Assembly (NCBI RefSeq): GCF_000003605.2
Contig: NW_003141311.1
Coordinates: forward strand, 1-37,822
Source: Saccoglossus kowalevskii
Taxonomy: Eukaryota; Hemichordata; Enteropneusta; Harrimaniidae
Length of the DNA: 37,822 nt
Reading direction: 5' to 3'
Shown here: positions 612 through 25,214 of the stretch, in pieces
Layout: every line of letters starts with the position of its first letter
Position numbering within the stretch: position 1 is the first letter of the stretch
Made by a program: the position numbers and the translations under genes
The notes under the pieces: generated by a model
Told to the model about the DNA's origin: nothing
Database searches by the model: none
Seen by the model: only the letters and a program-made list of their open reading frames with translations

Positions 612-2845
612 ATGATTTTTTATTTTGTTTTCATTGGCGTTACGTGCATTTCGTATGGTAAATAAATGCTGTACATTTCGTATGGTGACATAGTATTACA
701 AACTTGGTATATATTGCCGTATAAAAAAAACATTCTGTTTTATTCATCTGTGATTTTCGTCTGTTTTGACGGGTATGACATAGAACGACCAGGCTACGTA
801 TACAGCCTGTCTTATGAGAAAACCCTTAATGATGTAATAATGATGGCGGTTTAGTTTAATGCGGCGTTTTTGTTGTAAATTGCATAACACACACTTTCAA
901 TCACCAAATTTATACTATAGTTGTTTAAATTGAAATAAAACTCTTGAAATACAACTCCTGATTGTATATTGTATCGAAATATTTGTATGAGTAATAACTA
1001 CAAAGTGTGCTGGCAAATGAATCCGTTTTAATATACGCGGCCATAATGACTTACTTTGATGTCAACAGAATGGGTAATTTGTAGTTAATATTGCCTGGCA
1101 GAACTCGATATCCATGAATAAATATAAATACAGCAACTTACTATAATTTTGATAGTTTACCGACAGTATGGATGGGTAACAATTCAGGTGGTTCGTACAT
1201 TTGTTTTTAGTCTTGTCATGGGCTTTTAGCGTAAGTAAATTTGTCTGACAATAATTTAGCGATCTATAATTTATGTTTACATTGATACAATACCTATACA
1301 TAATATATGTTTTATTATATAATATAGTGATCTGTAATTTGTATTTACATTATTATATAATTGCATTTAAAATATACAGAAATTGCTTGTTATATAATTT
1401 ATATATATTACTATTTACTTCCTTTAGGTTAATACGCAAACAGGTAAGACACGACTTACTGTATTTATTTTAATTATAGTTATTTATTTATTTATTGTAT
1501 ACTCGGCTATACGTAAGTTGAAAAATAATATTTCTGATATTAACCGACAATTCTATTTCGTTTTTATCTTTTTGCGCCATGTTTTAAAATAAAACTTCAT
1601 AAAGTAACATTGATTTCAAAATACAGAGTGTGGGAATTGGACGCAGTGGATGGATGACGAAAATGGTGGTCTTGTTGACCCTCAACTTGGTGAATTTGAA
1701 TACCTCCCTGATCTTCGTAGCCTCTATGATTTCTGCGAAACCCCTAGCAGTATTGAGTGCCGTACAGTGCTTGAACCGTATACACTATCGTACGAAACTG
1801 GACAGACCGTACACTGCGATTTACCTGATGGATTGATATGCTTTCATGAAGACAATGTTTCCCCTTGTATGAACTACAAGATTCTACAACTACAAGGACC
1901 TCTTCGCTCCAAAAGGCTTCGTTGCCGGTTTAGCTAATTTAGAATCTAATGAGGTACGAAACTCTGTGAGAAGGTTCATAAAGAATGTTCCAGGCTTCTC
2001 AAACCCAAAAGGGAAAGGCTACTGGATTGGGTGTCACGACGAGGAAAACGAAGGCATATTCGTATGGTTGAATGGAGAGAAGGTTAATGTGCCTGACAGT
2101 GCCTGGTATTCCTATCCAAACAACAAATATACCGGTGATTGCGATGCAAAAGATTGGGACCAGGATTGTTGTCAACTGTGGTACGTTGATTCCAATTAGT
2201 ATATTATGCTTGCAATCTGCTTTTTTTTTCAAACATTTTCTGAAAAGTCATTCATCAGGTAATCTCTCCCGTCCTGCAATTACAAATAAATGGGTGTACT
2301 CTGTGAGCTTCTTCGTATTGAATCGTCAATTGTCATGATGTCTTTTATAGTGAAAGACCAAAAAACGATCCTTCCTTCAAAATGGATGATTCCTGCTGCA
2401 CAGACAACAAGGCTTTCATCTGTGAAGTTCGTAAGTTCACTATAATATAATTGAATATCGAAAACTATATGAACACTTAGAATCAATTATTTTCCTCTAT
2501 TGAAGAGTCAATACGGATAACTGTACTGTGGGTATTTTTTGAGCGTTTTTAATTATTTTTCTGTGATATTGTATGTGAAATATTATTTATTGTAAAATAT
2601 AAACGTAAACGTGGCATTTTACATTATCCAAACTTTGTGTTAATATCGTTACCTGTTGCGTTCCGTCGGCCTAAAGATGCTTAACATGTAATTACGTTAA
2701 GAAGCATGCAACATATTCAGTGATGTGCGAGACAAAAGACAAAATACGTGGTACTACTACAGAGTAAATTTATTACTATTACTCGAAATACTCTGATTAT
2801 AAAACTTAAGTTTTATCTCCAGCTGGATATTGCGCACGTCCATAG
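612..2845 (+). pseudogene. Gene A: frameshifted WxxW/C-type lectin relic
   Basis: A decayed member of the secreted WxxW plus C-type lectin family represented by genes B and C. The proposed exons are 612-657 (signal peptide beginning MIFYFVFIGVTC, ending in phase 1), 1627-2180, 2351-2430 and 2823-2845. All junctions are GT..AG. The WxxW part reads CGNWTQWMDDENGG and keeps the family cysteines as far as CMNY at about 1868-1879. From about 1882 the reading frame changes by +1 and directly encodes the middle of a CTLD (ESNEVRNS, GYWIGCHDEENEG, DQDCCQL). The WxxW tail, the intron between the domains and the start of the CTLD are missing, including the counterparts of C133, W149 and C156 of gene B. 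The invariant Trp split by intron 2 would be read as Cys (TG+T). The 80-nt exon (DDSCC, FICEV) and the terminal exon (PGYCARP, stop 2843-2845) keep family phase and motifs. The summed exon length is not a multiple of three. The signal exon assignment is the weakest part. Confidence 0.8.
1872..1896 (+). repeat. 9-bp direct repeat at the gene A domain junction
   Basis: AACTACAAG occurs at 1872-1880 and again at 1888-1896, spanning the point where the WxxW frame gives way to the shifted CTLD frame. A short direct repeat at a deletion or fusion point suggests microhomology or slippage, though both copies are kept, so this is only suggestive. Confidence 0.5.
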
Positions 2846-3986: not shown

Positions 3987-6900
3987 ATGCTACTGTTAGT
4001 ACTGCTCCTGTGCATTTTCTCTTTCACATCTTTGCAAAAGGTAAGATGTCACAAAATACATTTATTCTCTTCAATTACTGCGAGTACATAACTAATAATA
4101 TTAAGATGTATTTTCGGTTGCTAATATATTGCATAACCGATAATCTAAATGCATAAACTCTGTAACAATTTTTTTTTTATTTCTATTACTTCAGACAAAT
4201 GCGGCAGAAGAAGGTGTAGTACTTATTATTTGTTTTTATCATCTTTTATTTATTCAATATATATTATATAGTCATAATTGTTTTGCTATTTACAGCAACA
4301 GTATGCAGTATCATTCATTATAATTGCACAGTTGTTTAGTTTATAAGTGTTGCACCACGAGTAAATCAGACCCATTTAAAGCAAGGTTATTCTTAAATTG
4401 CGAGTGCAAATTTTCTCTCATAATTTCATCACGATTGATTTATCAGCACTGGTCATTATCAGATCATCTCTGTTTTGTCACAAATAAAATACACGCTCAT
4501 AGTGGCCACGCAGAAACGACAACAGTTGCAGTGTAACTAATCGCACGTTAGCACTAGTAACGGACGTTGCCCAGGTGCAACGTTCACCAGTCCTCGGACA
4601 ACTCCAACACAAAAATCGAACGCTACACAGTGACTGTGGCGCTTTATAGTATCTGGTGCGTGTGTATCAGTGTTTCATATGTGAGTATTTGTTTTGACAA
4701 TAAACAAATAACGCATTTTCGTTCTACCAGCCTGTGATGTATGGACCGAATGGATGGACGACGAGAATGGCGGTCTGGTTGACTTTGAAGCAGTTGGTGA
4801 ATTTGAATTGATAGAAGATCTTCGTCTAAATTATCAAATTTGTGACTCGCCGTCTGAGATAGAGTGTCGTGCCGCGGTGGAGCCGTACACTCCGTGGGAC
4901 CAGACATCACAAACTCTACAGTGTCATTTATCGTTTGGTTTGATATGTTTCCATGACGACAACCATAATTTATGTCAGAACTACGAAGTACGCGTGTTCT
5001 GTCCATGTTCTGTCCAGAATGTGGCATATAATGATTCTGCTGAAGGTACGTCTTCTGCTTTGACCGCTTGTAGAGAAGCTTTTCAAAATTGTACGTATTG
5101 TGTGTACATCGGTGGCAGTGAAACTACACTAGATTACGAAATCCGATGCTTTGGGTATGAATTGTAATAAGACCCCATTATGTTGTGCACATTTCTAGCT
5201 ACACGGTGAACTAATTTTAGTACAGAGATTCGATTAAAATGACGACTGTATGTTTCTGTACACATATTAGCAGTGTAGCTAGTATCCACTTTTATTGCTG
5301 AGTGATCTCATCGTTTATCAAAATTAACCGCAGTGGGATTTGCACTAGGGTGCAACTCACATACATGCGTGTGTTCATATATATCTTCATAGACAGTACG
5401 GGTAACCTGACACATCATGAAGCATGTTGTTGTACTGTTGATTAATGTAGTGAGAAGTTTATGCCACTTAAATATAGTCAACATATTTTTGATATTATAT
5501 TGTTGATGTTGTTGATTTTTTTAATAAATATGGGAAACTACTAGGCAATAATTCAGTATTCACATTGATATCAGTATTCAAGTTCATCCCTAGTTAAAAA
5601 CCTTACATAACATATATCTCGTTATTATTAGGAATAGTTCTCGTGCTACTCTGAACTACTTTTGATATTCTTTTTTCAGACGAACTTTGTATTGGAGACG
5701 ATTTGTTCAAGGTATTTCTCAGCCCAATCATGATGTGGAAATCAGCTGATGACTACTGTAGAGATCAGTATAGTATTGATGGGTTTGATTCGTCGCTGGC
5801 TGTTTTAGAGAAGCAAGAAGTACGCAATACACTGCGCACGTTTTTGATGTCATCGACAGTGTACAGTCATCCACCTAAACACGGTTATTGGATTGGTTGC
5901 AACGATCGGGACATAGAAGGTACCTTTACGTGGACCACCGGGGAAGCTATGAAAACGCAAGATATGGTATGGTCGTCAAACAATCCCAATAACAAGGTCA
6001 ATCTCAGGTGCGCGGATGAAGATCATGACCAAGATTGCTGTCAACTCTGGTAAATATTTCTTAGTTATTACATTTTCATATAAGTCATTGATTTGTATTA
6101 TCTTGTATCTAATATTCGGGTAAAACTTGTGTTAGAGTATCAAGAAATTTTTATATTTACATTCATATTGAAGTATATTATGTTAATATCACGTTGAAAT
6201 GTTGAACATACATTACTCCGTCTGTTGTTAACGTTGATTGATTGATTGATTGATTACTAGTGGTAGGTAAATTTGGTGAGCAGTATTTTGTAAGTCAGCA
6301 GAAATTTGACTGATTCGAATGATCGATCGATCAACTGATTGATTGATTGATTGATTGATTGATTTTCTGTGCCAAAAGCACAAACTGTTCAAAATAATAA
6401 GAATTCGAACGCATCAAATCAAAGCAGTTATCACTATCGTTACACTCATCGGCACCGACATTGCAGTAATCAGATGACTAATTCAGAAAGTTTGTTTTCT
6501 TCCAGGGAATATCCGAGAACCGACCCAGTATTCAAAATTGACGATGAGTGTTGCACAAAAAAGAAAGGATTCATTTGCGAAATCCGTAAGTTTGTTGTCT
6601 GTTTTGAATTGCGTATACTTATGCGGTCACCACGCAATGTGCAATGGACATGTTTCTCTACTCGTATCTCGTAATACGCTGTTTCTGATACAAATATTGG
6701 TGGGGTCCTTTTTACTGTGAGTAAAATTGGCAAAATGGTTTAGTTTTGTCGAAACCATCGAAATTATGAATTATGAATTTCACATAGACCTACCAAATGG
6801 CCAGTGCTCGTGTTCACACACAAACTTAGTAAATTTATCAATATTACTGCAAATCGTAATATAATTAGGATATAGGTTGGGAAAAGTTATTTATGTTATT

Positions 6901-7303
6901 GTTTATTTGAAATCGTGCTATGTAATAATATTTGCTCCAAAACCAAGTCAGCGGTTATTTAATTGCCAGTCAATTTCTCCGCTTGAATGACAGTACAGCA
7001 TGTGCTAATGATATCTGTTTAATCATTTGTGAGAAAGTGTGAGTGGTTGACGCATAAATATATTACCATGGTAGCCAAGCAAAATAAATGCGTCAGTTTC
7101 CAAGAATTCCCAAGTCATGCTCGTGTGGAGCAGACTTTCCAACTCGTTATCTTCACTGTAATTGCATTTAATTTAGGTAGTTTTTGTCTAAATGCATAAT
7201 GACTAGACCATATTAACATACATATTTTATTCACACTTGCTGTTTATAACCTCTAAATATAATTTCAACTTTTCATTTTTTAGGAGGAAAATGTGCCAAT
7301 TGA
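3987..7303 (+). CDS. Gene B: secreted WxxW plus C-type lectin protein
   Basis: Six exons: 3987-4040, 4195-4213, 4731-5045, 5680-6049, 6506-6585 and 7284-7303, all flanked by GT..AG, total 858 nt, 285 aa. Residues 1-21 form a signal peptide (Leu-rich core, likely cleaved after TNA). Residues 26-119 are a Mucin2_WxxW-type domain as in mucins and CILP: CDVWTEW at 26-32, then cysteines and a CPC end. Residues 133-278 are a C-type lectin domain: C133, W149 and C156, WIGC at 200-203 (the WIGL position), NPN at 231-233 (the EPN/QPD position), DQDCC at 246-250, IDD at 264-266 (the WND position), CC at 268-269 and FICE at 275-278. The tail is RGKCAN. The ATG at 3987 was chosen because it gives a signal peptide ending exactly at a donor in phase 0. 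The protein is probably an extracellular glycan-binding or mucus-associated lectin; the ligand is unknown. Gene C is its intact paralogue. I found no stop or frameshift. Confidence 0.87.
6236..6364 (+). repeat. GATT microsatellites in gene B intron 4
   Basis: Two (GATT)n runs, at 6236-6255 and 6336-6364, with a GATCGATCGATC run between them, inside the intron between the CTLD exon and the 80-nt exon. Confidence 0.85.
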
Positions 7304-7415
7304 TCCAGTGCTATGTGTATAAGTTACACTCTTATACTGCTCTGCTGTCCGGAATATAACGTCGGTCTTTATAATTGGCCTCATTATATTTAATAGAAGT
7401 AGATGAATTAATTGA

Positions 7416-7421
7416 AATAAA
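7416..7421 (+). promoter_or_regulatory. Polyadenylation signal of gene B
   Basis: AATAAA lies 113 nt after the gene B stop codon, on the coding strand. It is the first canonical signal downstream and would give a short 3' UTR. Confidence 0.65.
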
Positions 7422-10400
7422 TTTGCATATGATGAGTTTATTATGCGTGTCACTGAAGTTTGTTTGTGGACCGACTACTTGACATGCGTTTCCACGTGGA
7501 AACGACGACTACGTTGCTATGATTTGCATAAATTAAATCATCTGGGCTGGTGAAACGTCCGAGTGATAAAACGAGTCCGCTTACCTACTAGCCGTAGTTT
7601 CGCGGCTCCAGTGTCACTTGTGAATATCTCCCCGAATCCGTAAATGTCAAAACGTTTAACATACGCTTAGTGAAGAAAGTAAACAAGAAATATAGAATGA
7701 TAAAAATATGTTTAGTACGTCGAAAACACGGGTATATTATAGATTTTCCTAAAAATAAAAATATTATGGTGGGTTTGTTGTTTTAACGACCCGTCAAATT
7801 GTGGAGAGAATATGATATTGCAGATTCACGCAATTGTATGTCTGTTATGACCAAATGTGCGTACCGTTTCAATAATCGGTAGCGACTGGAGGCAGGACAA
7901 AATGTTATTTGTGATGCACCGTATTTAACATTATCGCGTCGACAAACATTTTCGTCTCAATATCAATTTGTATGCACGTTTTTCATACATACCACGTTTT
8001 TATGGTGAAATATACAAACAAAACGCGATTTGTTAAAATGGCGTGTACAGTAATTCATCACTGTCTACTTAAATTACCAAGACTATTAACCATATTGTTT
8101 AAAAATATTATGCGCAACGTTTTAGATTTCCAACAATATGCTGAAACTGTTTCGTTATATTGCATCCATTCATCCATTGTGAAAGACATACTACGTCATT
8201 CGACTGACTCGTTAAATCAAAGTGTTTATTAAATACGTCATTGTTAAACTACCATTTAAATTCTGCCAATTTGTATTTGCCCGTATCACTAACACGATCT
8301 ATACATACAACTGCGTGAATGTATACATGAGCACTTGAAGTGCGGGGTGTTTAAAAGTCGTTATGATTCGATAGTACATTAATTATTTCCAGTGTCAGTT
8401 GCGGCGAAATATTATTGCCAAACGATTCCTAAGCGGAGCTGGGGAGAAGTGGCGACTTATAAGATAAGAGATGTCTTTTATTTTACCTGTATTGAATATT
8501 AAACTGTTACGTTACCTTTTATGTACGGAGTACTGATTCTGTCCCACAAATGCCACTCTCGTATTTACGTCACACTGCCGACGGTTTGATAGAGACATAA
8601 TTAACATGTTCACCAATTTTCGACGAATTACACAATCTGTAAAATCATCAAGCAGACATACTAGATAATGCAACGGTCTTTTACTGTGAACTGTGGAGTC
8701 TTGGAAAACTTCAGATTCAATGGTGAAGTGAAGTCCGTGAATGCGACTTTAGACGAAAATGCACTTTTGCTGATATTTGATGATCCAATCCTAAACATTC
8801 AGATTTACTATAATTACAAACAATATATACATGTATTGTCAAATCACCAAACAGGGCATTAGAATGTGCATTATGCACTTTACCACACGGAACTGCCATG
8901 ATTAATAGGAGGACAAGAAAACAAATCACGGCACCGTGGAATGTAGAGTCGTACTCCTAGTTTCTGAGAAAGTTGGTTATAAATTGCGCGTCAGTGCTAT
9001 TCACAAACCGAAGATAAGTGAATAAAACATTCCATGACGTCATGAGTACCAAACAGCTCTATGAAGTGATATTTTATGAGCACACTTCTGTAAATTGTGA
9101 ACCACGCGTATGAATTGAACGATAATTTTAGTTAATTACGCGTAGCATCTAGGCGCGTTAGGTTTTGGGAATCGGCAGAAATTGTATCCCTTTCAGCGAT
9201 ATGTTATTATAGTTGTACCAACCGAGTATTTTTAGTTATCAAGTTCGAAATCTTCGTATTACGGCGATTAAAACGGCACTGTTGCACGATTTGGTCTCAT
9301 ATAATATAGTTTGACGTCACAAAGTTAGGAACATGTTGTCACTGTGACTGTACGCATGAAGGTTGTATGACAACTCTAGGTTTATATACAGCCTGATAAC
9401 TACGGATTGTGTTGAAATAAGTGTATTTTCATTTCGTTTTGTTGAAGTCGGTTGATATTAAAACAATTTCATTTTTTACAGACAGTTATAGATATACAAT
9501 CCCATGATATTACTTCCAGGATGACGAAGGCTGTTGATGTTGATGTGTTGTCTGAACTAATTAATCTTATCACTAATTATCATCACGCATTTAAAATGCG
9601 ATCACAGCTTGTTTTTATATTGTTTATACAACATTTCATGGTCATATTTAAATGTGTGTAATTGGCGTGGTCTAACTAGCGTTCTACAGTCATTCCAGCA
9701 CGAATAATAAAACAGAATACATCACAGAACTTTTGAAATTGTAAAGTGCAAACTACAGTAACTGCACCACACCTAGAGCGATATGTTATAACTTTGTATC
9801 CATTTCACCGAAACATTTCATTATTTGTAAATGTATTATATCTGATCAGAATAATGCCGTACGGACATAGATATTTTCACACAAACACAATAAGGAGGTA
9901 CAGAAGGTCCTGGGCAGTTAGATAAAATTTAATAAGAGACTTTCTATATATGCTGCATGCATCCTACACTAAGAGTACAAACTGGGCTATAAAAATAAAG
10001 TTGTATTAATCTCCATTATTCCACTATCCATATGTTACGGAATACCTCTGATTATGACATTACGTTACTGTTTCAGGTTGCTGGAATAAGTTAACATATT
10101 GTTGTAAACAAATGTTTCAATTACAAGGGAAGTTGAATACGTCAGTTTGATATAATCAAGAATTCTGTAACAATAGATTTTAATTTACGGCATCAATTTA
10201 TTATAATATTGCGTCATACTTATTAGTTATTAGAAATGAAATGTTGCTATCTTAAGGTTAAGTAATAATAATGTATTCCCTTTGCTTCCTCCGATAGAGA
10301 TATGAGAGAACTAAATGATATACACTGCATAATACAAACGAAAAAACATGTATATGGAAGCGTCACACGAAATAAATTAGTAAATTAGAAGAAATGCATA

Positions 10401-11126
10401 ACAAGGCACCAGCGCAAAATTGCAAAAAGCAAGTAAATAAATAAAAATACGTGGTACTGAATCGGTGGTCAGAATTGGCCTGGCTGAATTATATCTTTAC
10501 AGAATCTAGAAAGATTTAACAGCTCTGATTAATTAGATTTGTTAAATAGCTGATACATGTTTGAAGTGGTTACCTTGGCATAAGTGAAATGTACGTTGCC
10601 ACACACTTTAACGACCTGCTAATGAATCATGTTATTCTACTATATGATTGATGTCCCAAGTTATAATTTGGCTATCCAATATTGTATCACAAATAATAAA
10701 TCCGCGTGTTAGAAAAAGTGTTCAAGAAACCAACGTTATATAAAATGATCAGATAGTGTACGTAATTTTTGTAATGAAATGTACGTTACAAATAAAAAAT
10801 GCGCACCGCATGTACTTGGATTTATCAAGGGAGAACACTAGGACCAATCTGCGACAATAGAAATATCTGTGTTGATTATTGGGCTTAAAATATGTAGATG
10901 AAAAGTGTATGTTATTGAAATTACGTTACCGTGGTGGAGACTAAACTGGTTCAAAAAAAGAAAAAAATACTTTAAGCTTACTAAGGTCTTCCTTGTGGTT
11001 AAGACAATGTGTACTTTGTTGCATGTTACTGTTGTGCTATTACTTGGTGATTTATATGCCGTGTTTATGTGAGATCAGTAATTACCACACAAATTAGTAG
11101 CGCCTATAAAACCATTATATGCCGTG
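7422..11126. other. Long AT-rich intergenic stretch
   Basis: About 3.7 kb without a supported gene. The few open frames longer than 60 codons lack family motifs, splice context or compositional bias. The only structured item I noted is the perfect palindrome at 7487-7504. Confidence 0.4.
7487..7504. promoter_or_regulatory. Perfect 18-nt palindrome with central CACGTG
   Basis: CGTTTCCACGTGGAAACG is identical to its reverse complement and contains the CACGTG E-box core. It lies about 180 bases past the gene B stop. A palindromic bHLH-type site is one reading; chance is another. Confidence 0.3.
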
Positions 11127-11133
11127 CATGTCT

Positions 11134-11669
11134 CGGGGGGGTACTTGGCTGCTGATATGGTATAGGTGTGTAGCCCACATTGCAAAACCCAGAGCCCATT
11201 TTAGATCAAATTGGACCAAAAATGTATACCCCATCATAGACCAAAATGTTGTCTAGTAGACCCCATTTTAGATCCGCAATTTGTCCAGCAGACCCCATTT
11301 TGGTCTTGGCATATTAAAAGTAGACCGAAATTATCTTAATGAATACATATACTTTGTATTAAACCATACAAGTATGCATGCATTCCATCAAAACTATAGA
11401 TAGCTGAATACTAAGTCCCCGTTTCTTGAAAGTCATTTCGACATTTGGTGATTATGGCATATACTTATGCATACATGTATGCACCTTTATGCGTGGACAA
11501 AATAACCCCTTTTTAGACCCATGTCCATTTGACAATCAGTCATTGTGGACCCCATTTTAGACCAAATCCCGAAATTTGGTGGATCCCATTTAGGACCAGA
11601 TGGCTGAAAATATACACCCCAAAGGGCGGCACATCCGCGTAAGGTAAATTGCAGTGAGTACCCCCGGGA
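11134..11669. mobile_element. MITE-like element with G-rich inverted ends
   Basis: The left end (CGGGGGGGTACTTGGCTGC) and the reverse complement of the right end (CCCGGGGGTACTCACTGC) match imperfectly. The element is flanked on both sides by CATGTCT (11127-11133 and 11670-11676), a possible target-site duplication. The inside holds about six degenerate copies of a GACCCCATTTTAGACC unit, mostly in one orientation. No transposase frame is present, so it is non-autonomous. Confidence 0.6.
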
Positions 11670-11676
11670 GCATGTC

Positions 11677-12190
11677 TTCGAACGATGTACTTGGTTTAGC
11701 TTACTGTTGATCTGCAGCGGCTCGGGAATCGATCGTGATTGGTTAATGTTAATGAGCTGCGCCATCTACGGCCAACCGGGTCAACGGTCTTTTAATCTTA
11801 TTCTCTGAGAAGTTGCTTGTTGACCTCGTTCAATTCATCGCGCAGTTGCTTTGAGCTCAATGTATCGAGCTAAACTTTGCTCCTGGCGACTTTCTTTACT
11901 GTTTTGAGGGCTGCATAGGATTCAAGTTGAGAAGGTATTGGTGTGAGCTCTGAATAACGTGTGGAATCTATAATAAAGGCGGTCGATCGTAGCATGAACT
12001 GGCTGGTTTGTATTTTCCTGATCGAAGCATTGAACTCCAATTGCAACATTTTAGTTGTAGCAGCGACAGCTACATCGGCGACTGACTAACTTGTAATTAT
12101 TCGCCCATCATTGTCGCGTATGACTGATGACAGAAACACATTCATGCTGTCGCACATTTTAATATTACGAAACATTTCAAGAACTCGTTT
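11677..12190. other. Spacer between the MITE and the LINE remnant
   Basis: More balanced base composition than its surroundings, but no open frame, repeat or RNA gene that I can support. Confidence 0.35.
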
Positions 12191-12194
12191 CTTA

Positions 12195-14575
12195 CTAATA
12201 ATAATAACTTTATTGCCTCCGCGTAAAAAGATTTTCATAAGAAAAATACAGCAAAAAAGAGTGTTAAAATAATAACTGGATATATGTAAAAATATTATAA
12301 AAAAAGAACTTAACTAGTAAATAAAGTTTTGTGTTGTGTAAATATAATTGTCAAGTTCTATAATTATGCCAGTATGTTTGCTTGAGAGTATATATGTGAA
12401 GAGTATATTGTTATTTTTGGATGAAAGTAGAGTCATCATTTTTTTGGATGAAGTTTTCCCTGCATGTGTTCATATTTTGGGCAATTCAATAGAAAATGTT
12501 CTTCATCTTCAAATGAATTTATGTCACAGTTATTGCATATTCTTTTGTTCATAGGTTTCATAGTTTCATTTCCTAAGTTATGGTTACTAATTCTAAATTT
12601 TGTCAACATTCATTCAAGTTCATTCAAATATGGCTCAAAGATGTATTCTGTTTTAAATTTAGCATATGTTCTCAGTTTGCTATTTTCTTTGGAGATCATT
12701 TCTTTCCAAAAACTGGCATATTTATTTTCAAGGGAAGTTTTTAAAAATCATATTAATTTGATTTTTTGTTCTATAGTGAGTGTTTTTTTCTTTTATGAAG
12801 TTTAGTAAATTTTCTTTCAATGTTGTATGTATTGCATTTAGCATTGTGTTGTGCTTGTTCTAGGTATGCCTGTTTTGTTAAGATTATTATCTGGGAGTTC
12901 CTTTATATGCAACCAGTAATTAATAGCTTGAACTTAGTAGTAGTAGTGGATAATTACCCACCTTTGCTCTTGATGCTAAGTTACAGAATGTTTTATTCAC
13001 TTGTAAGATTTGTTTGCAGAATTTAATATTGACTTATTCAATTGATGTTTTGTCCCATTTAGCATTGTCCTGAATGTCCTGCAAGTCTAGGGCCCATAAT
13101 TCTGAGCCTAAAAGCAAAATTGTTTTTTATGTAAATGTTCAATAGTTTCATTTCATGATGTAAATTGATTTTCCAGCTTTACCTGCTAAATTTGACACGG
13201 TATCAGCAAATTATACTCCCATTTGATTCCTAGATATGTATAACTGTTTGTTGTTTGAATGTTATCATTTCCAAAACTGAATTGGTATTTATTTCTCAAT
13301 GTTGATGAACCAAAGATAACAACTTGGGTTTTTGAAAGGTTCACACTCAATTTTCACCGATTGCAATACTATTTTAGCGTATTTAATGATGTATGTAGAC
13401 CAGCCTGGGTAGTGGAAGTGAGGGCTAAATCATCTGCATATGAAATACTTAACAGTGTTATTATTCAGTATTGGCATTATCCAAACTATCTTTTAAATCA
13501 TTAATACAAATGTTGAAAAGAGTTGGACTAGTTGTACATCCCTGTTTTACTCCTCTATTAATAGTGAATTCTTTGGTTATATAATTATTTATATTAATGT
13601 AAGCTTTTGTTTTTGAATACATGTTTTTTATTATTGTGTAAATCTTGCCATTAATGTTATTTTTTAATAGTATATAGAATAGCCCTACTCTCGTGTCAAA
13701 TGCTTTGGCAAAATCTACAAAACAAACATAGAGTTTTTGTTTTTTTAATGTGTTTCTGAATTAGAGTTTACAATGCAAAAAAATGATCTGTTGTTCTGTG
13801 TTTTTTCTGAAGCCGGCCTGGTTGTTTTTGAGTATTTTATTTTTTTCAATGAAACAGTTTATGCGTTTATATATGATGGAACAGAAGACCTTACCAATAC
13901 AACTTGAAACTGATATTCCCCTGTAATTTTGAGGGTGTAATTTGTCTCTTTTTTTGTTATAAAGATGAGTGATGCACCTTAAATTCCAAATATCTGGGAA
14001 AACTGAGCTACTCAAAACTAAGTTCTTTTTCACTAATAACCTTATCTAAGTGATAAAATTGTCTTAGTTGCATATCAAATGGTAATTTATTTATCAACTT
14101 TGCACAAGCCATTATATCACGTTTACTCTGGTTGCATTGTTTATCAAACCATCTGGGATTCTTTTTTTGTTTGTTTTTGTGATTAAATTTATGGGATGTT
14201 ATATTTACATTATTATTTTAAATTATGAATTGTGTTATTAAACTCTTTTTTTTTGATGCTGATCTATCATGGTATTTAAAAACAGATGATTTATCCCATT
14301 TCCACTTCCTTGTCTTGAATTGTCACTTTGGATGAAATCATGTAGTAAACCAGTTCTTGCATTTATATCTCCCATTATTAAAATAGAACCCTTTGAATCC
14401 ATCTCTCTAATTATTTTTTCTAACCATTCAAAAAATGTGTCTGAGTTGGTATTTGAATTTGCTGGTGGATTGTAAACAAAACATATTTGTATATCTGTGG
14501 GTATATTGAAAAAATGTTTTTGTAGTTTACACCAAATCATATCTTCGTGTTCAGTATTGTCAGCCCGCCACGTTT
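12195..14575 (-). mobile_element. LINE remnant with endonuclease and reverse transcriptase
   Basis: A minus-strand, 5'-truncated non-LTR retrotransposon. Reading leftwards, 14540-14238 encodes part of an APE-type endonuclease (GDINARTG, VYNPPANSN). Then 14033-13761 gives reverse transcriptase motifs (PQNYRGISVSSCIGK, NNQAGFRKN), 13560-13500 gives RGVKQGCTTSPTLF, and the catalytic YADD is at 13440-13429. The region near 12550-12450 encodes the C-terminal Cys-rich block (CNNCD, EDEEHFLLNCP). The 3' end carries GGAGGCAATAAAG followed by a TTATTATTA-like tail at about 12195. The frame is broken at several points, so it is inactive. The clade (CR1/L2/I-like) is not resolved by eye. Confidence 0.85.
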
Positions 14576-14579
14576 TTGC

Positions 14580-15470
14580 TTTTTACGTACTATTGAATGG
14601 TCCGAGTATTTGTCATATAGCTGTTATATATAGCTGTTTTTATTGTATTCTGTTTCTTTAATTTCTTTTCGTAAACCATTAGAAGCCTACTCATGATTTC
14701 AAATACCCAGAACATTGTACTTTTGAGCAATATAAGGATATTGACTTAACAAAGTTGAAGGTCACAGCTTAATTTTCAAGAAAATCATCGTTGTATTTTA
14801 GTGAATAGTGTACATTTTGGCAGTATTATAGTGTTTTTGCCATAGGTTCCTGTGGCAGAGATAATGTAGGCTGGTGACATAGGCTGAAAAATTATATATT
14901 GTGAATGATGGGGTACTTTTTGTTCTCATTTATTTCAAAAACCTGGGTTTTAAGATGTGGCACAAAATTAAATTATTCTTTAACATTGTACTCTATGGAA
15001 TTGTTCTGAAAATAAGGATTTTTGAATGATATTAGGACAAGTTTCTCAAAATACGTCACTGTAGCACACAAAAGAAATACCTTCACGATTTTATACAATA
15101 AACCAATGAACATTTTCATGTGATTTATGACGAACTTTCTCACAAATTACGAGTAGGCTGCTACCTTATGACTTACTTCCAAAAGCAACAATAAATTGGA
15201 CAGAAAAATTAGCATATCCATAAGATTGATGACATGTTCATGTGTATTTACAGGTAAAATGGATTTAAAATCTTGACATCAATACCTCTTAAATAATGTC
15301 ACTCTATCTTTTTCTTTTTTCCTAGATGTATATTGTACCACTTTTGTTGTTCTACCCTAGTTGTAGCACACCTATTCCATTTGATGTTAAGTAATTGAAT
15401 ATATATTGTTAAACACCTTGCCACACAAAAACATATATATTTGTTTATTTACTATTTTTTAGATGTTCCA
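14580..15470. other. AT-rich spacer before the satellite
   Basis: No gene or RNA seen. The N-terminal part of the LINE endonuclease would be expected here if the element were full length, but I cannot recognise it. Confidence 0.35.
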
Positions 15471-15474
15471 TGAC

Positions 15475-15936
15475 TTTTCCACTGATATCTAAAGAACCAT
15501 TCATTAGATTTTGATGAAACTTGGTGCATAGATGCTCTGGGCCAATGCGCAGATTTGATTAGGTTTTGGTAGATATTCATGCACATTGATTACCTAATTT
15601 GCATGATAATTTTTAGCTGTCTCGTGACTGTTCCACTTATATCTAAACAACCACTCATTGGATTTTGATGAAACGCGGTACATAGATGCTCTGAATTAAT
15701 GCAAGGTTTTGATTAGTTTTGGGTACAAATCTGTGCATATTAATTACCTAATTTGCATAATGATTAATCAATTTTCGGCTTTTCCACTGATAAGTACTAA
15801 TCATCACATTTCAATAAAACTTGGTACATAGATGTCATAGGACACTGCACAGACCTGATCGTTTTTAGGGTAATATCAGTACATATTAATTACCTAATTT
15901 GCATAATTAATTAATTTTCAGCTTTTGATATTTCAA
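15475..15936 (+). repeat. Tandem ~152-bp satellite running into the gap
   Basis: Three degenerate units begin with TTCCACT at about 15478, 15631 and 15782. Each contains a TTTTGATGAAAC-type block (degenerate in unit 3), a CATAGATG block and ATTACCTAATTTGCAT near its end. The third unit runs directly into the assembly gap, so the array is probably longer and caused the gap. Confidence 0.85.
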
Positions 15937-16632
15937 NNNNNNNNNNNNNNNNNNNNNNNNNNNNNNNNNNNNNNNNNNNNNNNNNNNNNNNNNNNNNNNN
16001 NNNNNNNNNNNNNNNNNNNNNNNNNNNNNNNNNNNNNNNNNNNNNNNNNNNNNNNNNNNNNNNNNNNNNNNNNNNNNNNNNNNNNNNNNNNNNNNNNNNN
16101 NNNNNNNNNNNNNNNNNNNNNNNNNNNNNNNNNNNNNNNNNNNNNNNNNNNNNNNNNNNNNNNNNNNNNNNNNNNNNNNNNNNNNNNNNNNNNNNNNNNN
16201 NNNNNNNNNNNNNNNNNNNNNNNNNNNNNNNNNNNNNNNNNNNNNNNNNNNNNNNNNNNNNNNNNNNNNNNNNNNNNNNNNNNNNNNNNNNNNNNNNNNN
16301 NNNNNNNNNNNNNNNNNNNNNNNNNNNNNNNNNNNNNNNNNNNNNNNNNNNNNNNNNNNNNNNNNNNNNNNNNNNNNNNNNNNNNNNNNNNNNNNNNNNN
16401 NNNNNNNNNNNNNNNNNNNNNNNNNNNNNNNNNNNNNNNNNNNNNNNNNNNNNNNNNNNNNNNNNNNNNNNNNNNNNNNNNNNNNNNNNNNNNNNNNNNN
16501 NNNNNNNNNNNNNNNNNNNNNNNNNNNNNNNNNNNNNNNNNNNNNNNNNNNNNNNNNNNNNNNNNNNNNNNNNNNNNNNNNNNNNNNNNNNNNNNNNNNN
16601 NNNNNNNNNNNNNNNNNNNNNNNNNNNNNNNN
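15937..16632. other. Assembly gap (696 N)
   Basis: A run of undetermined bases. Its left border is satellite DNA; its right border is non-repetitive AT-rich DNA. The true length is unknown. Confidence 0.99.
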
Positions 16633-17294
16633 AAATCTGGATTAACTCATTGACTCGCCTATTGACTTACATGAGCCTTCACTATCTAGAACTAAAATTT
16701 ATGTATTACGTATTAATAGCCCATGTGCTTACGTCAATGACAACAAAAGAAAAAAAAAATATTTAAATGATCCATTATACATTAATAGTTTATATGCACT
16801 TCTACTGGAGATAACTTTCATTGGGGCAGCAAATACCATTTAAAACTAAGATTATAACATTTTGTGTAGTACTAATTCTTTCCCTGCAATGTGTATTTTT
16901 AGCCCCCGGCAGACAATGGTCCAGGGACTTACTTTTTCGACTTCTTCTTGAAAGTCTGATATGTACCTTAGATTTTTTTTATTTCATGCCATTCAGATTG
17001 CTTTGATATTATACATATAGGTACTACAGGCGAGCCTCTGTCAGATTTGTTCATTTTGTGATGATATCTTCAATTCTTTAATTAAAATGTGTGTTGCTAA
17101 CAGCAGAGCTATCACAGTTGAGAGGCTGCTTGTTTTTTGACTTTAATGTTGTCATACATCATTTCATCCTTCAGGTCTATATGTTATGCCATTAAATGTT
17201 AGGCATTATAATTAATGGCAGTATAGTTACAATCAAGTATTCACCAAGCATACTACATTTTGACTTCTTTCTGATTTTTTCTGTTTTTCATCTT
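16633..17294. other. AT-rich spacer right of the gap
   Basis: No supported gene, RNA or clear repeat. Confidence 0.35.
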
Positions 17295-17531
17295 TGTTCA
17301 ACCTCGTTCAACCTCGTTCAACCACGTTCAACCTGTTCAACCAGATGAAAAGATGAATTTGACAAAATCCATTCCAAACTCGTTCAACCTCGTTCAACCA
17401 CGTTCAACCTGTTCAACCAAATGAAAAGATGAATTTGACAAAATCCAATTCATCATCATTCAACCTCGTTCAACCACGTTCAACCTGTTCAACCAGATGA
17501 AAAGATGAATTTGACAAAATCCATTCCAAAC
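17295..17531 (+). repeat. 76-bp minisatellite with nested 10-mers
   Basis: About three units spaced by 76 bp; the landmark ACCTGTTCAA starts at 17331, 17407 and 17483. Each unit has two to four GTTCAACC(T/A)C decamers followed by AGATGAAAAGATGAATTTGA (AA in unit 2) and CAAAATCCA. This is a two-level repeat: decamers inside a larger tandem unit. Confidence 0.92.
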
Positions 17532-19681
17532 AAATAAATGAAGTGGGTATGTATAAAGCTGTGACTTTAATTAACAGATTATAACTGGTGGTGTCCCAGT
17601 TGTATTTGGAACCAAAAACAAAACTATCGAAACAATAATGTTAAGCATGGCTACTGTCGAACATACACAGGTGACTAAAATAACCTAAATCAAAGTCAAT
17701 TATAATAAAAACATAACCAGTAAGAGGAGTACTACAAATAGTGTACCTGACGTCTGCAACAACCACCTCACCCATAGCTCTAAACGTCCCCACCTACTGT
17801 CTCTTCCTCATTTCAATTGTTTATACCCTCTTTGTGTCATTGCAGTTATTTGGGGGGGGGCATGTTAAATTACATTTGGGCTGGAATGATTTTTTCCCCC
17901 AACTTTCCCTATCATGGCTTTCACATACAACCCTACAATTTTTTTTCTTCAAATTTTAATATGCAAATAAGGTATTTTCAAACTGGCCAATGATATCCGA
18001 GTCCCGAGCTGCAGCAGATCATTAGCTTACATACACGTTAATCACGATAACTTCAGCAACATAATATTATATAAGGTCATCGATTGTGACTTTTTTTCGA
18101 CTGAATTAACTTGCTTTACTCTCAACTAATTTTTGAAATCTTTGATTATACATAACTCAATATAATAGTAAATTGTATTCGGAGCATTTTAAACTGACTC
18201 GTACATAATGAATAGGTGCTCATTATTTACACTTTTTCTGCCTCTAGTAATTTGCGAGTTGAAGGGAATAAATAAAACACATTTGAAAAAAAAATATTGC
18301 GATAGACGCGATTGATAAGAGGCTTAGTTCAATGGCAAGATTCAGAATAATTAGACTCTGTGCAAGAAACTTGAGGATTTCATATATTCAGTACATAACA
18401 TATTAATAAAACAGTGGATTCGTGAATTAACGTGGTTATTACTTTCATGTCATACGTGTACGGACTGTCATCTCACATACAATGGCACGATGTGACAGAA
18501 CGTGATATTCACACACACGCAATAGTAACGTCTGACTCCACACAGTGGCCCAACATTGTTTATGAACATTTTTATCACTATTTACAAACAAAGAGTACAT
18601 GAGTAAGGTATTTTTTTCAGTGAGGTTTCAAAAAATTACATAGATGTTTTTCCAACCCTATATAAGGAGTTGGAACTGCTTTGAGTTTATGGTTTACACA
18701 TGGTAACGCTGGTAACTTGATAAAAAAACATATTTCTATTTCCGGACTTTCAAATCGCCAATTGCATCTCTTTCTTATTGTATTTAGACAGTTTGTTGCA
18801 GATCAATTAAACCGTATCCAATGTTGTATATAGGTAAATAAACGTCACCGCGTAATATCGCGCCGTGTTATTCTACATGCTATTATCACATCTCACTACT
18901 GTTACGCCTGCTATGATTGGTTGAAACTTGGTCATATGACATTGAATAAAGATGGATATTACATGGTATATTGCCCGCCAAGTGGATATTACATGGGTAT
19001 ATCACAAGAATGACGTCACTGAAACTACTGCGCAACGATACTGCGCATAAAAAATTGTCGTTCGCGGCATTGATGCTTCCCCGGCCGTTGTTGCTTTCGG
19101 GGTTGCTACCAAGGTTTTGAAGGAACTTTGGCCATCCGAAATAGACAGCCAACGTGCCAGAATGAATATTGAGTAAGATACTCTGTTTTGATGTTTAGGG
19201 TATTCTTTATATGAAGCGCGTTCTACGCTGTGAGCATTTCTAGACGTTCAAGTTCCACGCCGATGCTAACCGAAAACGGCCTAAGCTGTGTGACTGGTTT
19301 GTTATGTTCGTGAGAAAGTAATTTCAAACACTTCTACTGCACTCTGACATTTTTATCTGGCGAGTGGTTAAAATACATTTTGAGAATTTCTCTCAATTTA
19401 TTTCAAAAATGTTATACTTGATAAATTGAGTGGTTAACTTTTAGTATCCGTGGCTGAAAATAGCGTTTACTGTGTGTTTTTTGTAGTTTTTTTAGCAAAC
19501 AATGTATGTATGATATTGTTATTATATATGTAATGTTGCACTTGTTATAATGCATAAAATACAATATTGCATACTTCAAATATAAGCGTTGTTATTTCGT
19601 GGGAGAGTGGGTGTGAGTGATCTATGGTAGATGTATTTGTGCATGGTGGATGTCTGTTCGATGTGATAAAATAAATAACAC
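17532..19681. other. Intergenic stretch with possible dispersed repeat
   Basis: No gene supported. At 18950-19010 the block TGGATATTACATGG occurs twice, 32 bp apart, before ATGACGTCAC. The following ~150 bases are more GC-rich than their surroundings, which suggests an old dispersed element. Confidence 0.35.
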
Positions 19682-19739
19682 ATGGTTATTCGGGCAATAT
19701 CACGATATGTTGTCTGCCCTCGGGCTGTTGGTCATGACC

Positions 19740-19782
19740 ATAATATTGATGATGCCAGAGCCTTCGGCATCATCAATATTAT
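19740..19782. repeat. Perfect hairpin, 17-bp stem and 9-nt loop
   Basis: ATAATATTGATGATGCC at 19740-19756 is the exact reverse complement of 19766-19782, with loop AGAGCCTTC. It sits in a GC-shifted block (about 19690-19870) that also has a second short inverted repeat (ATCGACC..GGTCGAT, about 19814-19840). The block is probably a small dispersed element. Confidence 0.75.
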
Positions 19783-19874
19783 CAATATTATGACTGAAAC
19801 AGTACCCTGTCGCATCGACCTCCGCTGCGCGTCGGTCGATACTGCCGCTGTACTGTCTTCATGCATACTTTGAG

Positions 19875-20813
19875 GTTTCTTCGTTATAACCTTATATTAT
19901 AACTCGTCGCTTGGTGACTTGTCCCAATGCCCCAATCATTTGGCAATACGACACGATATGATAAAGACTGCCTTCTAATAACTTCTAAATATTCAGCCAT
20001 AAAGGCCAATTGTCGGGCAACTTATTAATAATTTTTTTTCGTCGGGAGTACAATTGATTACAAATTAAATAAATTCAGGGTATTCTCATTTATAATAGTC
20101 CAATATGTCGACTCAATTAATCTAGCATTTGTAAAACGTGTCACTGAATTTTCCACACACACTACCATTAATTGATTGGTAAATAAATTGGACTCTTCCA
20201 ATCCGTACGGATGTACATACTAAATAACGAAGTCGATCTGCGTACGTATCAGCGATGTCCTGGGAACTTCAGACAATATGCCTATTACATTCAATGACTA
20301 TGGTAACCGCATATTAGATGTACCAACATGCTGGTATTAATAACATTTACATTGAATAATTCAACATACAAAATAAAAAATATTTGAAGTAAATGGATAA
20401 TTTCACTATGTAATAATTACCCTTTTCAAAATTTAGTCTTCAAAGTAAATTGACTCGTGTACTTGAAAGCCAAGGGTGTATTATTACTTTGCCGCAAAAA
20501 GAGAAAATATCCTAGGTATCTTCTATAATGAATCAGGTTTATTATACCACGTCAAATCTAATTAGTTTTCAGTGTTCTTTTATGAATTTTCAGTTTGTCA
20601 AGGTTATAATCACTGATTTCCTATACTAGTATAATTATTGAAGCAAACTCAATAAGTATAATATATGTCTCGACACGCAATGCGTGTTTATTTTACACAT
20701 TTTTTAATCATATGATAATAATCGTATATTACAAATTACTTATTCGATGAGGGGAATGCACGTTGATAAAATGAATACACTTTGTCATCTACGGCACATC
20801 ATGTCCAAGAAAA
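19875..20813 (+). other. Upstream region of gene C
   Basis: AT-rich DNA with no supported gene. It should contain the gene C promoter, but it shows no obvious similarity by eye to the matching region of gene B and no clear TATA box. Confidence 0.35.
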
Positions 20814-23800
20814 ATGAAAATTAGGATACCACTGATGTTTGAATGGCTATGCTGGTTAATCGTATTGCAACAGGTAAGTATACTTAAATCAAGCGAAATT
20901 TTTCTTTGAATTCCATATACAAACTTCGTTGTATTGAAAGATCATCTCCAAGGGAAGATAACTAATGATTTATTTTGTTCGACTTTATAAATTTGCTAAC
21001 TATATTTACTGTTATAATTTTTGTTTTGAAAAACAATTGCAATTGCAAGTGTCAAAGCTAATTTAAAAAATTTATTTTTGATCTTCAAAAAAAGTAATTT
21101 ATTATTTTTCATATAGTATCAATTTATTACACATTAATACATCCAACTAATGTGTTTAAATTTAGCCCTTAACAGACTATGGCTCGAAATGTATGAGTTT
21201 TCCTCCGAAGATTCTCTTATGTACAATGAAAAATAAATATATATATTTATATATTTTCGTCCGAATATCAATATATTTAGTTAAGTCTAAATACAGTTTA
21301 CTATATAACAGGTCTCCAAGACTAATCACGAATGTCGCCGCGGTGATGACAGGTACCCAGAATGTACACCATACGAACAGACTAGTCAAAACTACTAAAA
21401 CGACCCAGACAGTATTAGTACCCGTAGTTTAGATGTTTCTATATATCGCATACTGTTTCGCATTGTATAGTTAGCTCACATTAGGTGACCATTCAACCAT
21501 GTGGCGCACCAAATGTTTTATCTAATCTCTTTCTTAGGTAACATTCAGTAGTGGAAATTCAGTAGTGTATTTATAGTTGTATATATATATTAAATCATAC
21601 GTGTTTAAATTATTATTACAGGCATATGCTGCAGATGAAGGTAATATGAATTATATATTTGTTTTATAGTGTTTTGTAATATGTATTTCTGGTTTATTAA
21701 ATTAAATTTATTGTAGCAAATTGATCTGAGATTCGAGATATTTACCATAAACTACAATCAAATAATTCTATAAATATACTATCGACAATCCATTCGCAGT
21801 CCGCATGTCGGGGCTCATTTTTCCCGAATGTTGTACATTAAAACCCGGAATGAAGATAAAGCCATTTTGTACTTAGCGTTTTGATATTTTTCTAATCTAT
21901 AGTTTTATATGTTCCCCTGAGTGATATTTTCCTAATTAGCAAAGATTGGTATCGGGAAATTTAGAGTAACTACGACCCTTTTAAATATCACACAGGATTG
22001 CAAGATGAAAGATATAAAAAGTATTAATCCTAGCAACATCAATCAACGTTTACTTCGAACAGATCGGCAAGATCAGTTGTATGGTCGAATTGAATGCTGG
22101 ATTGTCAACATAGCTGTACTAACTGTAAAAGTCACTGCGTTGATGGGAAAACGCTGTTTGATCTCTCGCTCTTCTTTTCTCTTTGCTGAAAATAAAACTA
22201 GGAATGGGTCGCTTTTATATAATACCATTTTTGAACGTTGAATGCAATGATATTCGGTATTATTTAATATCCGTAGGTAATTCGCATATGCATCGAAATC
22301 AATTAGAATAATAAAATTTCGATTGATTTAAGTATATCAACCAGAACACGTTCGATCGATAAACATTTCGAAACACAATTGAATTCGTGATAACTCGAGG
22401 TTCAGTTTGGATTTGTAACGAATGAGACACGTATTTAGAGTATCCGTGGAGTTGAATAACTACACGACCACTCATATTGAAACAAATCGTCATAACAATC
22501 CATTTGTCAATTCACCAGCCTGCGATGTATGGACTGACTGGATGGACGACGAAAATGGCGGTCTGGTTGACTTTGAAGCAGTTGGCGAATTCGAATTGAT
22601 AGAAGACCTTCGTCTAAATTATCAAATTTGTGACTCGCCTTCTGAGATAGAGTGTCGTACTGCAGTGGAGCCGTACACTCCGTGGGACCAGACATCACAA
22701 ACTCTACAATGTCATTTATCATTTGGTTTGATATGTTTCCATGACGATAACTATAATTTATGTCAGAACTACGAGGTACGCGTGTTCTGTCCGTGTGATA
22801 TTCAGAAAGGAGGATATAATGACTCTGCTGCAGGTAGGGGTGATTTGTATTGTAATCTGTTATTGTATTGTTTCTGTGAAACAGTGTATGAATTCATGTA
22901 TGTTTTAGTACTTGTCTACACGGCTCCCTCTACGGCGACTCTATGTTGTAAAATGTTTTTGTGAAAGGGAACGATGCAGTGTGGGTTGGTCAATCAGATG
23001 TCACTTATTGATATTTGGTGGTCGTTTGTTATCACGCCTGATTTGCATCCACAAAAGAAAATTAATGTTTAACATTTATTATAAGTCAAAAGAGACAATT
23101 CGACATATTTAATGTTGCTTTGATATGATTCAGATTATAAAAGGGTTTGTTATGCAATATGTAATTGGTTATTCTCGATTTGTATGCGATAGTCAAAATT
23201 GGTTACAAGATATTTTACCATAATTAGATGAATTACGAAAATAATAATAAAATCACGAGAGATGAATTGGATAAATGAAATAACGAATGAATAAAGTATT
23301 AAATATGTAGTTAACTCTGTGTGAAGTGACATAAACTAGAATGCATGGAGTACACCAGGTTTTACAATTTTGTCATTTCTGCAATGGATGATCTTCTTCT
23401 ATTCTGTGACCTATGTATCTAGTGGACGCAACGACGTCATAGATTAAAACATTATTTGATGGGCTAAAACAAGTACCGTCTCCAAACGAGATCTAGATAT
23501 GGCGATAATCTGAATTTGAAAATGAGATGCACGTATTTTTCTGTAAATTATGTCACCGCTTGGTGGCGTACTTCGTATTTTTGCTGCCATAACGGCATAT
23601 ATGCGCAATATATACACTTAATGCTACAGCTTTTCTACAAACTTTTCAGACGAATTTTGTGTTGAAGACGACTTATTTAAAGTATTCCTGAGTCCTTTTT
23701 TGTCATGGAAATCTGCCGATGACTACTGTAGAGATCTTTACAGCGTTGATGGGTTCGAGGCGTCATTGGCGATCGTGGAGAAAAAAGTCTTTCGTAACAC

Positions 23801-25214
23801 ACTGCGAACCTTCTTGATGAAAACGGAGCCGTTCAATAATCCACCGAGACATGGTTATTGGATTGGTTGCCATGATCGGGAAATTGAAGGAACTTTCATG
23901 TGGACGAATGGGGAAGATTTTTCACTATCGAGTGAGATGTGGCAATCAAAAAATCCGAACAACAGGATCATTAAAAACTGCGATGACGTAGGACATGACC
24001 AAGATTGCTGTCAGCTCTGGTAAACTATATTATTTACTATACCATTGACGAATAAATAATCGCTTCCGGTCGTGATATTGTGGACACTCTGTGGGTCGTA
24101 AAAGTTCTTGGGATAGATATTTTCGGATGGCCTACGTCGATTTCATTAAAATGGCAATTATAAGTAAATTACGTCGCAGTAATTCCAAATTGACACCTCT
24201 GTCATTGATTGTATTTGATTAAAATTTGACGAGATTCAGTTGATCTCGGTATATCGTGCGGGATTGATTGTCTAAATGTGTAAAGATGAAATAGATGATA
24301 ATCTTCAGACTTTGAGATTGACTTGCTGTTGGTGACCTAAAAAAAACAATAACTTTATATAATTTGTAGTTTTCCTAATATGAAACGTATATTTTTACAA
24401 TAATGACAAATTCACCCGTAGGAAGGTAAAGCGTTAACATGTGTTTTACAGCTCAGAAATGAATCCCATGCGCTTCCGAAGTTAAGGTTGGGAGAAAAAC
24501 ATCAGCGAGTGTCTGTTTATCACATATTACAGCAGTTATTACAACAAAAATATATATTTTTAGTCACATCAATAGCAGAACAGAACAAATTGGACCATTC
24601 AAATTGCCGATGGGTGATGTGTTATTGGAGGGTTGATATCGAAAACACATGGGTTTACATTCAAATACTCTTGTGCAGTTTATTTTAATGTTTGGAGTAA
24701 CAACAAACTATAGTACAGTCATGCTGTATTAACCCCCCCCCCCAAAAAAAACAAACAATTTATTTTATATGTAGTTTCTATTGTTCTCATTATGCATTTT
24801 CATTTTTGGTCAAAACTATTATTTTTCAACACGGGCAAGGTTATAATACTATTTATATTGCAGGGAGTCGCCGCGTACCAATCCACAATTTAAACTGGAT
24901 GATGAATGTTGCACTAAAAGAAAACCATTCATTTGTCATATCCGTAAGTGCTATGTCATTACAACCGATCGAGTTTCACTTCTGTGCTGACAGAACTAGT
25001 GTGTTGGTAACATTTCATAATTTATGATAAAATATAAATACGTGTAACGGTCTGCGCAACAGTCTTTGTTCAAATGAAACCTATATCTCGCGCATGCGCA
25101 ACGCTACGGCCACGACCTTTAATATTATACACGTACAATTATAAAAAATACCTTGTGTCACCTGCCAACATATTTTATACTTCGTTTTTTTTAGGAGGAC
25201 GCTGTGCTATGTGA
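20814..25214 (+). CDS. Gene C: secreted WxxW plus C-type lectin protein
   Basis: Six exons: 20814-20873, 21622-21640, 22519-22833, 23650-24019, 24864-24943 and 25195-25214, all GT..AG, total 864 nt, 287 aa. Exons 2-6 match gene B in length and phase exactly. The signal peptide (MKIRIPLMFEWLCWLIVLQQ) ends at AYA, which fits the -3/-1 rule. The WxxW domain is at residues 28-121 (CDVWTDW). The CTLD follows, with WIGC, NPN at 233-235, DQDCC, LDD at 266-268, CC and FICH. The tail is RGRCAM. An upstream in-frame ATG is excluded by a stop after seven codons. By hand count the WxxW exon is ~91% identical to gene B at the protein level (3 differences up to the CPC) while the CTLD exon is only ~64% identical. 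The role is inferred to be extracellular carbohydrate or mucus binding; the ligand is unknown. No stop or frameshift was found. Confidence 0.87.
25089..25100. promoter_or_regulatory. GCGCATGCGC motif in gene C last intron
   Basis: CGCGCATGCGCA contains the palindromic core known as the NRF-1 binding consensus. It lies in the intron just before the terminal 20-nt exon, in otherwise AT-rich DNA. Function is unproven; it is a motif match only. Confidence 0.25.

Follow-up and report, generated by a model that had tools for sequence, protein, structure and literature searches.

The 37,822-nucleotide stretch of Saccoglossus kowalevskii DNA analysed here (the window; positions 1 to 37,822 of contig NW_003141311.1, that is, the start of contig C3222) carries two intact genes, A and B, each of which joins a hydrophobic signal-like peptide, a mucin-type WxxW (CysD) domain and a C-type lectin domain in one product. 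From the sequence, we regard it as an even call that A and B represent a family of small secreted animal lectin-type proteins that would be docked in mucus, with a constant anchor and a variable head.

Both genes lie on the forward strand and consist of six exons (A, 3987-7303, with a product of 285 amino acids; B, 20814-25214, with 287 amino acids). All ten introns have GT-AG borders, the intron phases after exons 1 to 5 (0, 1, 1, 2, 1) are the same in both genes, and the products are 75% identical over 269 residues. After the signal-like peptide, exon 3 encodes the Mucin2_WxxW domain, and exons 4 and 5 encode the C-type lectin domain. An earlier note on this DNA had described two intact genes with these parts in the same order and with identical phases, and the spliced models agree with it; the signal peptides, including that of the relic gene described below, were judged by eye and not with a predictor. 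In a Pfam check of the spliced proteins that had been set beforehand, both domains scored above cut-off in both genes: PF13330 (Mucin2_WxxW) at 70.5 bits in A and 69.7 bits in B (model positions 1-88 of 88; cut-off 22.4), and PF00059 (Lectin_C) at 42.5 and 40.5 bits (cut-off 22.6). These were the only two families in the scan, which found no VWD, C8 or cystine-knot domain and no F5/8C or F-type lectin domain. A tblastn search of A and B against the window matched A, B and the relic, with no convincing fourth copy.

On its sequence, the WxxW domain is assigned to the CysD domain of gel-forming mucins. The CysD (Mucin2_WxxW) domain also occurs in CILP. Its best sequence matches in the PDB are the CysD domains of MUC5AC (E = 3.8e-13), MUC5B and MUC2; it is the same domain by profile and matches the solved mucin CysD domains 8qtb, 8oer and 6tm6 in sequence, and it keeps WxxW, as WTEW in A, WTDW in B and WTQW in the relic. 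Seven cysteines align with those of MUC5AC CysD and an eighth is offset by one residue; exon 3 of A and B holds eight cysteines, as against five disulfides in mucin CysD (PMC11912381, accessible text). That WxxW is a motif for tryptophan C-mannosylation, as the earlier note had it, is stated for mucin CysD in the accessible text of PMC6163557. Unlike MUC2, MUC5AC and MUC5B, A and B have a single CysD in a protein of 285-287 amino acids, joined to a C-type lectin domain, and the features of a gel-forming mucin (a VWD/C8/TIL assembly, a proline-, threonine- and serine-rich (PTS) region and a cystine knot) were absent from both by Pfam. They share with oikosin1 of Oikopleura and a fish 'Mucin-5AC' the state of secreted CysD proteins beyond the classical mucins (PMC6861317, PMC11765562); oikosin1 has 13 CysD domains and the zebrafish protein six, whereas A and B have one plus a lectin domain, and the accessible portions of the two papers mention a lectin domain for neither. 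The accessible text of PMC9169620 places the first appearance of CysD domains in Bilateria.

The lectin part of A and B matches mosGCTL-1 (E = 3.2e-6), L-selectin and others among PDB sequences. The two proteins are like secreted invertebrate C-type lectins such as mosGCTL-1 (PDB 9t9z) in their Pfam and PDB matches, their small size and their several adjoining copies; unlike mosGCTL-1, they carry an N-terminal CysD and NPN instead of EPN, their loop is longer, and they hold additional cysteines (CC, ECC and a GKC/GRC tail, by eye). Mannose- and galactose-type C-type lectins carry EPN or QPD plus WND at Ca2+ site 2. Neither A nor B has this combination, and the first EPN residue, N in both, is also replaced in the relic (Y) and in a relative on contig C1210 (R); EPN is retained in another relative, on C3803. 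With NPN in place of EPN, a canonical mannose lectin is unsupported. Inspection of the alignment by eye shows oxygen-bearing side chains still in the Ca2+-site columns (N, N, Q, D, D), and non-canonical binding of Ca2+ and sugar is possible. The replaced EPN residue and the extra cysteines, such as a stable structural module might have, would also suit a structural component of the matrix or mucus gel, in which CysD and a protein-binding lectin fold cross-link the gel without microbe recognition. We consider this explanation unlikely, though not to be dismissed: A and B have one CysD each, with neither a VWD nor a cystine-knot domain, and the change between them is clustered in the ligand loop, a region that one would expect to be conserved in a purely structural part.

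In the one gene pair on which the contrast rests, A and B, the putative anchor and head have diverged unequally. Nonsynonymous (dN) and synonymous (dS) divergence, estimated by the Nei–Gojobori method (NG86), are 0.041 and 0.340 in exon 3 (dS 0.26-0.34 across two methods) and 0.246 and 1.52 in exon 4; the low dN/dS of both domains reflects coding constraint. Among codons for the same residue, 14 of 96 differ synonymously in exon 3 versus 41 of 103 in exons 4-6 (Fisher, 7e-5), and fourfold sites differ at 6 of 33 positions versus 15 of 29 in exons 4-5 (Fisher, 0.007). Because adjacent exons of one gene pair are expected to share dS, exon 3 appears to have been either converted or synonymously constrained. 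The limits of strong similarity lie no more than about 5 bases from the borders of exon 3, and 11 of the 27 exon 3 differences fall in its last 47 bases. When 150-base intron flanks were aligned globally, the score was reached by 0 of 200 shuffles at the end of intron 2, by 105 at the start of intron 3, by 25 for the last 150 bases of intron 3 and by 2 for the first 150 bases of intron 4, which indicates residual similarity beside exon 3 on its upstream side only. Within exon 4, where the boundaries of the long loop were chosen from the alignment after the sequences had been inspected, 18 of 29 residues differ in the loop versus 27 of 93 elsewhere (Fisher, 0.0019), with dN/dS of 0.65 in the loop (0.58/0.89) and 0.09 in the rest of the exon (0.16/1.84). 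The most divergent 29-codon segment, with 19 differences, starts three codons before the loop and was equalled in 49 of 5,000 shuffles.

The pairing of the two domains recurs in the genome (572 Mb), in which a PF13330 profile search gave 73 hits. Sixty-five of these were checked for a lectin exon (all except seven on C2922 and one on C1646). For 56 of them the surrounding DNA was retrieved, extending 3 kb or more downstream for 53, and a same-strand downstream lectin exon was found at six: A, B, the relic, C3222:71,783, C1210 and C3803. On C3507, C3628 and C4829, all nine WxxW hits have a same-strand lectin match 0.28-0.71 kb downstream (the sequence of C3507 and C4829 was read in part, and C3628 was assessed by coordinates only). 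Pairings thus total 15 of 65, or about seven distinct loci if these three contigs copy the window's array; the count relies on lectin profiles built from five to seven sequences, which very divergent lectin exons may escape, and further weak matches near WxxW exons (E above 5) were discarded as noise. The recurrence bears on whether the WxxW and lectin exons are instead separate genes lying side by side. Besides a pairing on one strand at so many hits, the five modelled loci (A, B, C3222:71 kb, C1210 and C3803) agree in phase, with a 1-1 WxxW exon and a first lectin exon running from 1 to 2, and no stop interrupts the spliced frames across the modelled exons; separate genes are therefore very improbable. 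Symmetric phase 1-1 exons are of the class suited to shuffling. A chance match or a single-gene oddity is rejected, given the profile scores, the common phases and the recurrence in the genome.

The relatives vary in their surroundings. The gene at C3222:70,999-73,782, 46 kb beyond B, has the two domains at 58.2 and 57.1 bits and an additional cysteine-rich exon without a Pfam match, and the C3803 gene encodes F5/8C, WxxW and lectin domains in a single open frame after splicing (61.5, 71.8 and 25.3 bits). Exon modelling did not find the N-terminal ends of these two genes or the small exon 2 of the C1210 gene; upstream of the latter (L040) lies a Kunitz-like exon, recognized by its cysteine pattern by eye. 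In a FastTree phylogeny of 56 WxxW matches and MUC5AC, A, B, the relic, C1210, C131 and C3574 were grouped (local support 0.959), with C3222:71 kb and C3803 outside. Beyond the family, the lectin matches that rank next for A show 33-41% identity (for example, on C4724, C1416 and C1613). Around unpaired WxxW exons, we surveyed same-strand frames of at least 75 amino acids with more than 2.5% cysteine, within 4.5 kb or in four flanking stretches; these 78 frames gave 12 Pfam families, including WAP, TIL, VWC, WSC, C8, VWD, EGF_CA, LDLa and HYR, and no Lectin_C. WxxW matches at C2922:763724-811319 lie in frames of up to 9,175 amino acids, perhaps a large mucin with few exons. In a genome-wide Lectin_C search, in which 150 of 480 candidates were scored, C4110:4287-36599 showed a regular array with a match about every 8 kb, on both strands.

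The F5/8C domain that precedes WxxW and the C-type lectin domain in the C3803 relative recalls the mixed-domain F-type lectins found in molluscs, hemichordates and cephalochordates; a figure legend in PMC5712786 includes the C-type lectin domain among the domains of F-type lectins. Unlike these, A and B are without F5/8C, and a search for 'WxxW' and 'mucin' in the accessible portion of that paper's text found neither term. The same modules might have been built into another secreted product, such as a venom, an adhesive, a spawn coat or a gamete-recognition protein, which we judge to be quite unlikely. Lectin and cysteine-rich modules in changing tandem arrays occur in such proteins. Oyster F-type lectins are gamete bindins (PMC5712786, accessible text), a parallel to the F5/8C domain of the C3803 relative; against this, nothing within the window points to such a tissue.

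The earlier note had also claimed a relic of the same gene type. The relic is real, but it lies at about 1168-2430, upstream of position 3987, where the note had the family begin. Its halves, scanned separately, score 61.8 bits (WxxW) and 25.5 bits (lectin). Contig C3507 is colinear with the window from 1290 to 6635, and directly upstream 195 of 200 bases match; in 200-base steps, aligned-base identity is 0.90-0.99 in 25 of 27, and the two lowest (0.80 and 0.86) span most of gene A intron 3. Relative to this copy, the window is without 367 or 368 bases at 1884/1885. On C3507 the counterpart of the relic has an open frame in the exons that were read, namely exon 1 and the spliced exons 3-5; the gene A copy there is broken, exon 3 having gained one base and exon 4 carrying two stops. 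With the reverse found in the window, copies of the array differ in which member is broken. Contig C4829 is 99.1% identical to C3507 over a 5,439-column alignment; exons 1-4 of its gene A copy are open, and exons 5 and 6 were not found on the contig, where similarity ends before exon 5, 569 bases from the contig end. A relic produced by an assembly slip alone is less likely, given two separate lesions (the stop in the signal exon and the 367/368-base deletion) at both of which C3507 is open; at the deletion itself, an assembly error may have contributed.

In the mechanism that we propose, signal cleavage would leave a protein made of a CysD module and a C-type lectin domain. The CysD would fold in the endoplasmic reticulum, probably C-mannosylated at WxxW, and would anchor the protein to mucins or matrix, leaving the lectin domain as an exposed head. 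Free to diversify in its long loop, this head would bind a glycan of microbial or host origin or some other ligand. The proposal of a docking CysD and a recognition head draws on the C-mannosylation of mucin CysD and on what CysD domains do: mucus becomes stiffer with a recombinant protein that holds 12 CysDs, CysD domains have a tendency to self-aggregate (PMC6861317), and MUC2 CysD1 is involved in filament assembly (PMC11912381), according to the accessible text of both papers. For A and B we infer that they are secreted and C-mannosylated, dock on mucus, bind a ligand and act in defence; tethering to mucus is plausible by homology, and glycan sensing possible. We put forward only tentatively, as a rather doubtful extension, a constant-anchor, variable-head mucus system in which the anchor exon is kept uniform, perhaps by conversion confined to the exon, the ligand loop of the lectin head diversifies, and genome copies carry different sets of intact and broken members. 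If the reading of A and B as mucus-docked lectins is right, mucin architecture would be tied directly to innate recognition, and an animal protein would position its lectin in mucus by means of the domain through which mucins themselves assemble. It would also offer a natural experiment in which anchor and binding head are under different rules in adjacent exons.

Several observations weigh against this reading. The border-limited match of exon 3 could reflect constraint on the exon just as readily as gene conversion, and with a loop dN/dS below 1, relaxed constraint would explain the loop as well as selection for diversity would. Where mosGCTL-1 has WND, A has IDD and B has LDD, which, with NPN for EPN, makes the Ca2+ and sugar motif non-canonical. 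AlphaFold models, from three-row alignments, were of low confidence (mean predicted local distance difference test (pLDDT) score of 44.2 for the exon 4 protein and 35.4 for the exon 3 protein). MUC5AC CysD1 was not seen in its filaments (PMC11912381, accessible text), and the stiffening of mucus concerns a 12-copy protein, when A and B hold one CysD. No lectin exon was detected downstream of C131 (within 9.7 kb) or C3574 (within 9.6 kb), both in the A and B group of the tree, and the contigs of the next-best outside lectin matches of A carry no WxxW hit, which argues against a simple story of pairing.

Both domains are already known separately, as are lectins in mucus. A literature search of titles and the starts of abstracts, which did not extend to subscription papers or domain-architecture databases, returned no description of the pairing of WxxW with a C-type lectin domain and no paper naming both Mucin2_WxxW and Lectin_C, with PMC5728529 and PMC8576976 returned for the name Mucin2_WxxW; domain-architecture databases may well list the pairing already.

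Table 1. Exons of genes A and B and of the relic in the window.
Feature	Position	Strand	Remarks
Gene A exon 1	3987..4040	+	Signal-like peptide MLLLVLLLCIFSFTSLQK
Gene A exon 2	4195..4213	+	Phase 0 to 1
Gene A exon 3	4731..5045	+	WxxW (CysD) domain; symmetric 1-1 exon
Gene A exon 4	5680..6049	+	Bulk of C-type lectin domain
Gene A exon 5	6506..6585	+	End of C-type lectin domain
Gene A exon 6	7284..7303	+	Tail (R)GKCAN and stop
Gene B exon 1	20814..20873	+	Signal-like peptide MKIRIPLMFEWLCWLIVLQQ
Gene B exon 2	21622..21640	+	
Gene B exon 3	22519..22833	+	WxxW (CysD) domain; 91% DNA identity to A exon 3
Gene B exon 4	23650..24019	+	Bulk of C-type lectin domain; 71% DNA identity to A exon 4
Gene B exon 5	24864..24943	+	End of C-type lectin domain
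Gene B exon 6	25195..25214	+	Tail (R)GRCAM and stop
Relic exon 1	1168..1230	+	Signal-like peptide, stop at codon 4; ungapped alignment to C1210 signal exon, 10/21 residues; C3507 copy open here
Relic exon 2	1428..1443	+	Splice sites intact
Relic exon 3	1627..1884	+	WxxW; shortened by deletion
Relic exon 4, remainder	1885..2180	+	Lectin domain; out of frame with exon 3
Relic exon 5	2351..2430	+	End of lectin domain

Other elements were also seen in the window. A decayed retrotransposon of the type without long terminal repeats (non-LTR) occupies 12300-14582 on the reverse strand, with RVT_1 at 41.6 bits (13464-13760) and an endonuclease domain at 28 bits (14241-14582); a second reverse transcriptase-like stretch was noted by eye at 35620-37300 on the same strand, where the three frames scanned gave no Pfam match. 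Also on the reverse strand, 34467-34709 is an exon of an AMP-binding enzyme of the acyl-CoA ligase type (AMP-binding_C, 47.4 bits), with an apparent neighbouring exon of that gene, by eye and without a Pfam match, at 34816-34971. Short elements resembling miniature inverted-repeat transposable elements, with inverted ends (AAAGCGG..GTCGTC..TGCGCATGCG and the reverse), were seen by eye at about 35050-35205 in the window, about 6700-7500 in L012 and about 4610-4770 in L028. A minisatellite of CGTTCAACC-type units, likewise by eye, lies at 17300-17540, near a 696-base run of N at 15937-16632.

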